From NCBI RefSeq assembly GCF_030066995.1, contig NZ_JASJAP010000003.1, forward strand, positions 248,001 through 312,000: DNA of 64,000 nucleotides. The letters run 5' to 3'. This document shows, piece by piece, positions 10,811-13,646 of the stretch. How positions within the stretch are numbered: the first letter of the stretch is position 1; each line of letters begins with the position of its first letter. The stretch comes from Erythrobacter sp. Its GTDB lineage: Bacteria > Pseudomonadota > Alphaproteobacteria > Sphingomonadales > Sphingomonadaceae. Under the pieces are notes generated by a model that was not told the origin of the DNA, searched no databases, and worked only from the letters and a program-made list of their open reading frames with translations. Position numbers and translations under genes: made by a program.

Positions 10811-11160
10811 AGCTCTGGGTCCCAATCTCGCTGGCACTCGGCATGCTCTATTGGATGTGGGTGGATTCTCAGCTCGGCGTAACCGAGCCATGGGACTCTG
10901 AGCATTTCTGGTCGTACTACCTTCCCGCCTTGCCAATTGGCTTCCTGATCGGGTTTGTATCCCGGCAGCGAAGCGTGTTGATTGGTGGGATATTCGTTCT
11001 TGCCATGTTGCCGGTGATGGCACTCCAATCCGGTGTGGGGCCTCTGATCGCGGTGGGCATTTTGCTGCTCCTTTTCCTGTCAGCCCCGGCGGCTGTCTCA
11101 AGTTGGGTAGGAGGTCACCTCAGGCAGAAGCTATCTGGACCCCTGCCTTCGCAGGGGTGA
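10807..11160 (+). CDS. Small membrane protein, hypothetical
   Basis: A 117-residue protein with three to four hydrophobic segments (about 4-20, 38-53, 60-74, 80-100). It starts at a GTG that overlaps the cobT stop by four bases, so it is translationally coupled. The last residues (GPLPSQG) and the stop codon are encoded by a dispersed hairpin repeat (11140-11157), so the original C terminus was probably different. I do not recognise the family. Confidence 0.55.
11140..11157. repeat. Dispersed hairpin repeat overlapping a gene end
   Basis: CCCCTGC and GCAGGGG form a perfect 7-bp stem with a CTTC loop. The following GTGACG supplies the TGA stop of the small membrane protein. Same family as the elements at 8876 and 37872. 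Confidence 0.8.
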
Positions 11161-11176
11161 CGAAGAAAGAGAATCG

Positions 11177-11836
11177 ATGAACGTCACCGAAGCCGTCACC
11201 AGCCGCCGCTCTGTGCGGGAATTCCTCGACAAGCCGGTCGAGCTCGAAACGATCCGCCGCGTCATGGACAAAGCCCGCTGGGCGGCTTCGGGCTGCAATT
11301 ATCAGCCTTGGGAAGCGACCATCCTTACCGGTCAGCCGCTCAAGGATCTGCAGGCCAAGATCACTTCCACGCCGCCGCAACAGCTCGAATACGATTGGGA
11401 CGCTCCCAAAACCGAGGACGCTTACAAGGAGCGTCTCTACGGCATTTCCAAAGGCATGTTCGAAGCGCTCGGCATTGCGCGCGACGATGGTGCGGCGCGC
11501 ATGGCGGCGATGGGCCGCAACGCCACCAGCTTTGATGCGCCCGCGGTGATGTTCGTCTACTTCCCCAGGCTGATGAAAGAGCCGCAATGGTCCGATACCG
11601 GCATGTGGCTGCAAACGGTCGCGCTGCTGCTGCGCGAGGAAGGGCTCGATAGCTGTTTTCAGGAATTCATGGCCTACTACGCCGACGTAATCCGCGACCA
11701 CCTCGGCCTCGATCACGAGCGCTACATGTTCTTTTGCGGCATGGCCATCGGCTATCGCGATCCGGACGCGCCGGTGAACAAATTCGAGCGCGAGCGTGTG
11801 CCTTTGGAAGAGCAGGTCAGGTTCGTCGGGTTCTGA
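11177..11836 (+). CDS. Nitroreductase family protein
   Basis: A 219-residue FMN-dependent nitroreductase-fold enzyme. The N-terminal SRRSVREF motif and the WAASGCNYQPW segment bind FMN phosphate and isoalloxazine; EEGLDSCFQE and the C-terminal FCGMAIGYRD match the family. These enzymes reduce nitroaromatics, quinones or related substrates with NAD(P)H. The physiological substrate is unknown. It starts 16 bases after the preceding stop. A second nitroreductase-fold gene lies at 49349, from a different subfamily. Confidence 0.9.
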   Translation: MNVTEAVTSRRSVREFLDKPVELETIRRVMDKARWAASGCNYQPWEATILTGQPLKDLQAKITSTPPQQLEYDWDAPKTEDAYKERLYGISKGMFEALGIARDDGAARMAAMGRNATSFDAPAVMFVYFPRLMKEPQWSDTGMWLQTVALLLREEGLDSCFQEFMAYYADVIRDHLGLDHERYMFFCGMAIGYRDPDAPVNKFERERVPLEEQVRFVGF

Positions 11837-11840
11837 GCTT

Positions 11841-11930
11841 CGTCATTGCGAGCCGTAGGCGAAGCAATCCAGGGCGATCGAGCCCGGCGGCTCTGGATTG
11901 CCGCGGCGACTGCGTCGCCTCGCAATGACG
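11841..11930. repeat. Dispersed imperfect inverted repeat (CGTCATTGCGAG type)
   Basis: The outer arms are CGTCATTGCGAG (11841-11852) and CTCGCAATGACG (11919-11930), and the inner arms GCAATCCAG (11864-11872) and CTGGATTGC (11893-11901). The element fills most of the gap between the nitroreductase and cysS. A second copy with the same outer arms is at 13509-13632, just after cysS. Confidence 0.88.
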
Positions 11931-11976
11931 ATGCGATTGACGGGTCGCTAAACGCTGGGCAAAGCGCAGTGTAGCT

Positions 11977-13506
11977 ATGACCGATGATACAACATCTCAT
12001 GATCTGTGCCTGTTCAACTCGCTGACCCGCGAGCTTGAGACCTTCACCCCCGTCCACCCCGGTGAAGCGCGTGTCTATTCGTGCGGGCCGACGGTCTACA
12101 ACTATCAGCATGTCGGCAATATGCGCGCCTATGTGTTCGCCGATACGTTGGGGCGCGCACTGCAATACAAGGGCTATAAGCTCACCCACGTCGTCAACAT
12201 CACCGATGTCGGCCACCTAACCTCGGACGCCGATGAGGGTGAGGACAAGATGGAGAAGATGGCGGCGCTTCAGGGTAAGTCGGCTTGGGATATCGCGGCC
12301 TTCTACCAAGCGGACTTCGAGCAGGATTTGCGCCGTCTCAATATCGAGCCCAAGCAGCATCCGCGCGCGACCGAATATGTCGACAAGATGATCGAATGGG
12401 GCAAGAGCATCGCCGACAAGCATTGCTACGAACTCGACAGCGGGCTCTACTTCGACGTCTCGACGATCGAAGATTACGGTCGGCTTGCGCGCGCCGTTAC
12501 CGAAGATGGAGAAGGCCGCATCGACACGGTCGAGGGCAAGCGCAACGCCGCCGATTTCGCAATCTGGCGCAAAACGCCTGAGGGCGAAACACGCCAGATG
12601 GAGTGGGACAGCCCGTGGGGCAAAGGCGCTCCTGGCTGGCATCTGGAATGCTCGGTGATGGGCGAGGAATTGCTGGGCTTTCCCTTCGACATTCACACCG
12701 GCGGGATCGATCACCGCGAGATCCACCACCCCAACGAGATTGCGCAGAACCAGGCCTATTGCTGCGCGGGCGGGCTGTCCGAGGCGAGGAATTCGGGCGC
12801 GAACATCTGGATGCACAACAACTTCCTGGTGGAACGGTCAGGCAAGATGTCGAAGTCGTCGGGCGAGTTCCTGCGGCTGCAATTGCTGGTCGACAAGGGC
12901 TTTCACCCGCTCGCCTATCGCCTGATGTGCCTGCAGGCGCACTACCGCAGCGAGCTGGAGTTCAGCTGGGAAGGGCTGGAAGCGGCGCTGACCAGGCTGA
13001 AGCGGATGGTGATGGCGGTGCAGACGCTCAAAGCCCGACATGCTGAACTCGTTTCAGCATCCATCGCCGACGCTGCGCCATGGATGGCGGATGAGGGATG
13101 GACCCTGAAACAAGTTCAGGGTGACGGCTGGGGCAAGCTTGGACCATCCCTTGAGAAATTCGACGGCGCCATTTCGGATGATCTGAACACTCCCGTCGCA
13201 TTGACGGCACTGGATGATGTTCTCGGAATGAAGAAGGTTGACCCTGTCAAGAAGGGCAAACTCGCCGCTGCCATGGACGAGGTTCTTGGCCTTAACCTGT
13301 TTGGTCTCACACGCGTAGACTTGCGCATCCGACCGGTCTCAGCCGAGATCACCGAAGCCGAAATCGAGGACGCGCTCGACCGTCGCAAGGCCGCGCGCGC
13401 TCAGAAGGACTTTGCGACCTCCGATGCCATCCGCGATGAACTTGCGGCCAAGGGCGTGGAGGTGATGGATGGCGATCCGCTGGGCTGGGAGTGGAAGCTC
13501 TCTTGA
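11977..13506 (+). CDS. cysS: Cysteinyl-tRNA synthetase with in-frame palindromic insertion
   Basis: A class I aminoacyl-tRNA synthetase (509 residues) that charges tRNA-Cys. The N-terminal CGPTVYNYQHVGN segment contains the zinc Cys and the HIGH-like HVGN; KMSKSSGEF is the KMSKS loop, and HHPNEIAQ carries a further zinc ligand. The C-terminal helical part ends AKGVEVMDGDPLGWEWKL. Residues about 355-384 (HAELVSAS ... LKQVQGDG) do not look like CysRS; they are the translation of an inverted-repeat element at 13039-13124 in a helical linker before LEKFDGAISDDLNTP. The frame stays open, and both flanks are conserved, so the enzyme is probably active. Confidence 0.95.
   Translation: MTDDTTSHDLCLFNSLTRELETFTPVHPGEARVYSCGPTVYNYQHVGNMRAYVFADTLGRALQYKGYKLTHVVNITDVGHLTSDADEGEDKMEKMAALQGKSAWDIAAFYQADFEQDLRRLNIEPKQHPRATEYVDKMIEWGKSIADKHCYELDSGLYFDVSTIEDYGRLARAVTEDGEGRIDTVEGKRNAADFAIWRKTPEGETRQMEWDSPWGKGAPGWHLECSVMGEELLGFPFDIHTGGIDHREIHHPNEIAQNQAYCCAGGLSEARNSGANIWMHNNFLVERSGKMSKSSGEFLRLQLLVDKGFHPLAYRLMCLQAHYRSELEFSWEGLEAALTRLKRMVMAVQTLKARHAELVSASIADAAPWMADEGWTLKQVQGDGWGKLGPSLEKFDGAISDDLNTPVALTALDDVLGMKKVDPVKKGKLAAAMDEVLGLNLFGLTRVDLRIRPVSAEITEAEIEDALDRRKAARAQKDFATSDAIRDELAAKGVEVMDGDPLGWEWKLS
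13039..13124 (+). repeat. Palindromic element inserted in frame in cysS
   Basis: The left arm contains CTGAACTCGTTTCAG (from about 13043) and the right arm CTGAAACAAGTTCAG (from 13105). The right arm matches the reverse complement of the left at 14 of 15 positions. Between them is a shorter inverted part (CATGGATGGCGGATGAGG with CCATCG). In translation the element gives HAELVSAS and LKQVQGD. It has no stop in the cysS frame. Confidence 0.85.
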
Positions 13507-13508
13507 TC

Positions 13509-13632
13509 CGTCATTGCGAGGAGCGTAGCGACGAAGCAATCCAGAGTTCGTAGCAGAGCGGCTCTACGTTGCCTCGCTTGGTTTATCCAAAGCGACTGCT
13601 GCAAGCGGTCAGCTGAAGGGCTCGCAATGACG
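13509..13632. repeat. Dispersed imperfect inverted repeat (second CGTCATTGCGAG copy)
   Basis: CGTCATTGCGAG (13509-13520) pairs with CTCGCAATGACG (13621-13632), with GCAATCCAG at 13536-13544 as in the copy at 11841. The centre differs, and contains GGTTTATCC. It occupies nearly the whole cysS to hydroxyacid-dehydrogenase gap, and the ribosome-binding sequence of the next gene (GGGAGAGGAAAG) directly follows it. Confidence 0.85.
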
Positions 13633-13646
13633 AGGGAGAGGAAAGC

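Follow-up and report, generated by a model that had tools for sequence, protein, structure and literature searches.

The REP Pair within cysS

The window analyzed here, a stretch of 64,000 nt from an Erythrobacter genome (hereafter G000), contains the cysteinyl-tRNA synthetase (CysRS) gene cysS, which harbors a pair of short inverted palindromes in its coding sequence (Table 1). The product of this gene scores 368.5 bits against the TIGR00435 profile (cut-off 340) and is also matched by PF01406. Both arms of the pair are small palindromes in themselves, and the 15-mers at 13043-13057 (plus strand) and 13105-13119 (minus strand) are complementary at 14 of 15 positions. The whole unit occupies 13036-13126 (91 nt), with the tags outermost, and is translated as CysRS residues ~354-384 without interrupting the cysS frame. 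The arm pattern, allowing two mismatches, occurs twice in the window versus 0.12 expected, and none of 100 shuffles reached two; allowing one mismatch, it occurs 19 times in G000, versus no match for the reversed control pattern. The cysS segment is a presumably mobile DNA palindrome pair, a short dimer of CGTC-tagged REPs, that is translated inside CysRS. The preliminary description of the locus had correctly noted the inverted repeat and the intact frame, and the search for further genome copies that it proposed was successful; its limits for the segment (13039-13124, residues 355-384) are extended here by a few nucleotides on either side.

Table 1. Features at the cysS locus (positions in the window)
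Feature	Position	Strand	Description
cysS, cysteine--tRNA ligase, 509 aa, host of the insert	11977..13506	+	ORF; TIGR00435 and PF01406; PDB CysRS matches
Left REP	13036..13063	+	tag CGAC, stem ATGCTGAA/TTCAGCAT, loop CTCGT, tail CCA; translated RHAELVSAS
Spacer between REPs, 35 nt	13064..13098	+	fast evolving
Right REP, inverted	13099..13126	-	tag CGTC, stem ACCCTGAA/TTCAGGGT, loop CTTGT, tail CCA; plus strand reads WTLKQVQGD
Repeat pair of another CGTC-type family, CGTCATTGCGAG...AAGCAATCC	11841..11934		between upstream gene and cysS
Second repeat pair with CGTCATTGCGAG ends	13509..13633		directly after cysS stop

The catalytic-domain profile of CysRS stops at residue 337, ahead of the insert, and two alignments with PDB CysRS entries are gapped across the insert-bearing stretch. 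The AlphaFold model of the protein is poor (mean pLDDT 47.6), so the insert was located by sequence alone. The host enzyme had been presumed essential. This has to be qualified for G000, which encodes a second CysRS-like protein (C1:399383-400741, a 467-aa frame with 42% identity over residues 10-351 of the window CysRS); in G001 and G026, the insert-bearing gene is the sole CysRS among the matches listed. Weak second CysRS matches were also observed in G022, G025, G034, and G036.

The two repeat pairs on either side of cysS, already recognized in the preliminary description, are real and belong to a different CGTC-type family; arms like those with CGTCATTGCGAG ends bracket some of the GIY-YIG nuclease genes described below, for example in G107 and G125. 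In addition, a lone CGTC REP, CGTCACCCCTGCGAAGGCAGGGGTCCA, is located on the minus strand at 11136-11162 of the window, just ahead of the gene at 11177.

Assignment to the CGTC-2 Family

CGTC-tagged REPs fall into four families according to the 2013 survey (Di Nocera et al., 2013; PMC3733652): stems of 8 bp characterize families 1 and 2, the loop of family 2 measures 5 nt, the tails are mostly CCA, the hosts are mostly Alphaproteobacteria, and the repeats are chiefly intergenic. Both cysS arms have an 8-bp stem and a 5-nt loop, as well as the CCA tail, the arrangement in inverted dimers, and the dispersed copies of CGTC-2. An unpaired terminal tag of the expected kind (CGTC, or TGTC/CCTC) is present, being CGTC on the right arm; the left-arm tag is CGAC in the window strain and CGTC in the other 35 of the 36 insert-bearing CysRS sequences described below. 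A further CGTC-2 trait at the stem is found in the left arm, the right arm having A-T then C-G. Judged by these sequence features, the cysS pair is assigned to the CGTC-2 type.

In the same survey, CGTC and GTAG REPs have been reported in frame within genes, including truB and tRNA synthetase genes of S. alaskensis and E. litoralis (written 'lithoralis' in that paper; PMC3733652). REP insertion into cysS is thus a known kind of event, and the expectation of the preliminary description that such repeats are usually intergenic holds, without making a translated copy in a synthetase gene unprecedented. In G000, most REP copies lie outside mechanical stop-to-stop frames or at their ends; two copies (L011 and L012) fall within frames that are 262 and 126 codons long, so cysS is not claimed as the sole translated copy. 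An in-frame CGTC-2 dimer reading RHAELVSAS...LKQVQGD was also identified in two genes (L238 in G001 and L242 in G025) that, by their sequence, we take to be truB. In another case, an in-frame REP dimer was observed within a reading frame exceeding 1000 codons, in the same context in two species (L239 in G001 and L244 in G010).

Occurrence at the Same CysRS Site in Sphingomonads

We compared CysRS sequences drawn from genomes of the genus and the family as well as from named contigs (217 sequences, 197 of them distinct). Its nearest named CysRS relatives place the window strain in Erythrobacter in the broad sense. The same REP pair is present in 36 of the 197 distinct sphingomonad sequences at an identical site, in identical orientation and frame, and the carriers are scattered patchily over the CysRS tree in several genera, with host records that include Erythrobacter, Altererythrobacter, Novosphingobium, and Sphingorhabdus. 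This rules out a strain-specific insertion, which the preliminary description had proposed to check by such a comparison. The ATGC-type arm leads in all 36 sequences, 35 of which have it beginning 42 nt past the start of the RLKR codons; the remaining one (L220, G479) is shifted by an in-frame duplication of 21 nt that covers part of the REP head. The arms are spaced by 63 nt in 25 sequences, 60 nt in six, 48 nt in three, 57 nt in one, and 84 nt in one, and in eight sequences both arms match the consensus perfectly over 56 nt (two 28-nt arms). Genomes with few REP copies can also carry good cysS arms, for instance G342 with 2 + 2 arms in the whole genome. In four more sequences (G028, G085, G091, and G100), this register is taken by a different, CGTC-like REP family whose junctions match. 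Eroded-looking REP dimers were observed at the same place in L175, L167, L168, and L060 (RHADKGQ...GGWTF and similar).

These counts describe a non-random sample ranked by similarity to the insert-bearing query, in which 20 of 60 fetched CysRS stretches were picked for long matches. Inclusion among the 36 required each 28-nt arm to have no more than nine mismatches, a criterion that favors conserved arms and leaves eroded forms outside. One sequence (L188) was dropped for having no reading frame by motif; the REP-pair scan passed over sequences lacking the anchor motif, and L062, L101, and L122 had no similar anchor in another scan, so inserts in anchor-less sequences could be missed.

Conservation of the Arms at Silent Sites

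Synonymous identity among the 36 sequences is 0.881 in the arms versus a mean of 0.599 and a maximum of 0.772 in 437 windows of 18 codons elsewhere in the gene, a difference that the selection of the sequences by arm similarity overstates for the family as a whole. In 5000 random draws of 16 conserved codons, the silent identity of the arms was never matched, and the GC3 of the arms is 0.39 versus 0.80 for the gene. Perfect arms shared between lineages that are ~60% identical at silent sites elsewhere need recent insertion, conversion, or selection; we infer that the arms have been kept uniform by repeated insertion, by conversion, or by selection acting on the hairpins.

In the 25 gapless sequences, 96.5% of the cells of the two small hairpins are paired. 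Their covariation (0.060 versus 0.043 in shuffled alignments, none of 500 as high) comes from a single pair changed on both sides, a T-A to C-G replacement in four sequences that is silent by the codon table. A long stem formed between the two arms was rejected as a conserved structure, since its covariation (0.046) equals that of shuffled alignments (0.047; 270 of 500 as high).

History of the cysS Insert

When mapped on a rapidly built tree of 196 CysRS rows (insert removed, L122 omitted), presence of the insert requires at least 25 changes, 14 of them forced by well-supported branches, versus a mean of 33.5 after shuffling (none of 500 as low). Spacer identity in 15 pairs of the Erythrobacter core clade ranges from 0.49 to 0.78, the best pairs reaching 0.75-0.78, versus 0.54-0.59 for shuffled spacers; family-wide, pairs with less than 80% protein identity have spacer identities of 0.56-0.57 versus 0.52 for shuffled spacers. 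Spacer homology was dropped as a proof of a single ancestral insertion, because, at family scale, the spacers are close to shuffled ones and a motif resembling that of the cysS spacer occurs in other dimers (truB and others). The in-register swap of REP families tends to favor a recurrent insertion hot spot over one old insertion followed by many losses.

GIY-YIG Nuclease Genes Bracketed by CGTC REPs

In G000, a gene for a GIY-YIG protein between two genes that we take from their sequences to be ruvB and ruvA is enclosed by two REP arms 374 nt apart. A profile search identified the PF01541 domain in its product (E-value 6.3e-15). The GIY and YIG tyrosines, R31, H35, and E68 are at least 97% conserved in 77 GIY-YIG proteins, which retain the tyrosines, the arginine, and the glutamate characteristic of GIY-YIG nucleases; these residues presumably have catalytic roles, and we assume that the proteins belong with the small YhbQ/COG2827-like ones.

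GIY-YIG matches were found in 83 of the 114 genus genomes. Among the matches listed, 83 loci were scanned for terminal inverted repeats, and five were dropped as short or less than 45% identical, leaving 78. A score of at least 16 was obtained for 62 of the 78 full loci versus none of 56 control genes, drawn from 57 mechanically called ORFs of the window; the best control score, 15, belongs to cysS, owing to its flanking repeats at 11841 and 13509. Class-wide, matches were found in 123 genomes; of the 29 best-match loci scanned among these, 14 pass, each belonging to a different family, versus one of 218 control placements. The loci below the threshold (16 of 78 in the genus and 15 of 29 in the class) include several that are virtually free of repeats.

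In the plasmid collection, where 12 loci were sampled from 33 matching records, eight score at least 20, namely those of N. gonorrhoeae and A. caviae (chromosome-sized records filed as plasmids), A. lipoferum, Rhizobium sp. CIAT894, S. meliloti, Shinella, N. aromaticivorans, and Sphingobium, and those of Photobacterium, R. tumorigenes, Planktothrix, and Spirosoma fall below 20. Four of 48 nearby control placements also reach 20, probably being placed close enough to catch the same REPs. Like the CysRS sequences, the GIY-YIG loci were sampled by similarity rank and not at random.

The bracketing repeats are mostly CGTC-type palindromes that differ with the nuclease lineage. For instance, the clade A nucleases (16 genomes, at least 76% identity) are flanked by CGTCATGCTGAACTTGTTTCAGCATCCA and its stem variants, and arms of other lineages are CGTCATCCTGAACTTGTTTCAGGATAAC, TGTCATCCCCGCGAAAGCGGGGACCCAG, CGTCATTCCCGCGAACGCGGGAATCCA, and CGTCATTGCGAGCGAAGCGAAGCAATCC. 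A Mantel test on 61 of the 77 distinct proteins revealed a correlation between protein identity and arm similarity (r = 0.70, none of 2000 permutations as high; r = 0.395 for pairs below 70% identity). At another G000 locus (C1:1247777-1249404), two closely spaced GIY-YIG copies, one match being in two pieces, are flanked by GTGAGTCCCCGCGCAGGCGGGGACCTC.

At least four REP-GIY-REP units of a multicopy subfamily were found in G000 (L280, L281, L285, and L286). They are 94-98% identical in their shared part and have different flanks, and the boundary of the unit lies ~20-30 nt beyond the REPs. Stop codons are present in some copies, and two of the four run into a contig end.

Co-occurrence of REPs and Clade A Nucleases

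REP arms beyond the two flanking ones are present in all 16 clade A genomes versus 42 of the 98 others (medians 12 and 0; Fisher's exact test, 9.4e-6, uncorrected for kinship and draft quality). One genome with a 50-residue clade-A-like fragment (G120) was counted among the 98; if the ruvA-ruvB relatives are grouped with clade A, 38 of 94 genomes without it are REP-positive. In all 16 genomes the clade A nuclease sits between ruvA and ruvB, and this one conserved place means that the correlation between nuclease lineage and arm sequence partly reflects shared descent and is inflated by syntenic loci.

The ruvA-ruvB survey yielded 91 rows, from which 72 genomes were classified (14 rows had no ruvB in reach, three were odd, and two were repeats). 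The interval contains the nuclease with at least two arms in 17 genomes, one arm in five, and no arm in 49, some of the arm-free intervals being only 5-12 nt long; in G017, a short REP dimer lies in a 118-nt interval where others have the nuclease unit. The ruvA-ruvB interval thus occurs in three states: nuclease unit, short dimer, and empty.

Discussion

We propose, with a probability of roughly 0.66, that the cysS unit is a non-autonomous REP dimer in a length-variable connection of CysRS, the corresponding full unit consisting of REPs and a GIY-YIG gene whose nuclease would cut the hairpins and spread the REPs. In a complete unit, a small gene for a GIY-YIG nuclease would lie between two CGTC REPs in inverted orientation, and the short dimers would be REPs without the gene. 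The nuclease would recognize the hairpin that tag, 8-bp stem, and 5-nt loop of a REP form, either single-stranded or as a cruciform, and cut it, so that REP-bounded DNA might be moved or copied in trans via cutting and host repair. RAYT transposases, which are unrelated enzymes, are thought to do likewise for GTAG REPs. The cysS gene would tolerate the unit because one frame through both arms, as read from the sequence, is free of stops. The bracketing associates the GIY-YIG nuclease with CGTC REPs and makes it a candidate for the enzyme that acts on them and moves them.

A competing explanation regards the GIY-YIG gene as a passenger tolerated between REPs, with the dimers being moved by a RAYT in trans or by host processes. 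The similar GTAG REPs are associated with RAYTs (PMC3733652), a Y1_Tnp domain was detected in seven of the 114 genus genomes, and many REP-bearing genomes lack a full-length clade A nuclease. The domain is nevertheless absent from G000 and from 53 of the 58 REP-positive genus genomes by profile search, which led us to reject a RAYT as the REP driver, and distinct nuclease lineages carry distinct REPs around them; we therefore consider the passenger explanation unlikely. In our estimate marginally less probable still is a single ancient sphingomonad insertion, often lost and otherwise kept as a protein linker with its arms conserved for the sake of the peptide. The uniform site, frame, and orientation in 36 sequences, some alignable spacers within the Erythrobacter core clade, and the eroded-looking forms are in its favor, but the conservation extends to silent sites with low GC3, which a peptide does not need, the well-supported branches force at least 14 changes, and a different REP family is found in the same register.

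Identity with a Rickettsia palindromic element as such is very improbable. The superfamily is shared with RPE-4 and RPE-6, and the ~30 residues inserted in frame recall them; however, RPE-4 and RPE-6 correspond to sister CGTC families from another host, and the 8-bp stem and 5-nt loop of the cysS arms, which occur in an Erythrobacter, fit CGTC-2 instead of CGTC-4 (9 bp, 5 nt) or CGTC-1 (8 bp, 4 nt). The likeness to these elements drawn in the preliminary description is nonetheless sound, as a dispersed repeat lies within a gene with the frame intact. A chance palindrome in the CysRS coding sequence, for which nothing spoke, has a practically negligible probability given the copy numbers in the window and the genome. 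The preliminary description had taken conservation of the segment in CysRS of distant genera, or a lack of further genome copies, to speak against an inserted element; the former is what we observe (36 of 197 sequences, in several genera), the latter is not, and the existence of other copies together with arms conserved as DNA means that the insert is no ordinary conserved peptide. As a whole, the interpretation given there is partly supported, and the GIY-YIG link was beyond its reach.

The proposed GIY-YIG unit resembles several known systems. CGTC-2 REPs share with the cysS unit the tag, 8-bp stem, 5-nt loop, CCA tail, dimers, alphaproteobacterial hosts, and occasional in-frame insertion, including tRNA synthetase genes and truB; the 2013 survey states that CGTC REPs have no associated transposase (PMC3733652), whereas GIY-YIG genes are bracketed by them here. 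In the RAYT/REPtron and REPIN systems of GTAG REPs (PMC3733652; see also PMC3116915), inverted REPs likewise flank an enzyme gene, the enzyme lineages are repeat-specific, and short dimers are gene-free; their enzyme is an HUH tyrosine transposase, instead of which a GIY-YIG nuclease is found here, and no such transposase (Y1_Tnp) flanked by REPs was found in G000. GIY-YIG homing endonucleases and small GIY-YIG proteins share the PF01541 domain and catalytic-type residues; what sets the genes described here apart is their bracketing by REP hairpins, and no intron or defined homing site was seen. A literature search by title and start of abstract, with preprints and most subscription papers outside its coverage, retrieved no report linking GIY-YIG or COG2827 proteins to REPs, palindromes, or mobility. 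New in this work are the same-site recurrence and silent conservation in cysS and the REP bracketing of GIY-YIG genes.

Taking these observations together, we give about even odds to the broader proposal that small GIY-YIG nucleases drive a new class of mobile units, each lineage having its own REP, and that CGTC REPs serve as their recognition hairpins. The nuclease and host repair would then copy, swap, and convert REPs at preferred sites, which would explain why REP families are exchanged in register and why the REP pair in cysS is so uniform at silent sites. The REP-bracketed GIY-YIG gene is a concrete, small, and testable candidate for a REP group that was stated to lack a dedicated transposase and that corresponds to two Rickettsia elements known to enter proteins. 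If the proposal is true, it would represent a second, HUH-independent type of REP system, for which the cysS site provides a natural record of the entry, swapping, and retention of such a unit inside a coding gene.
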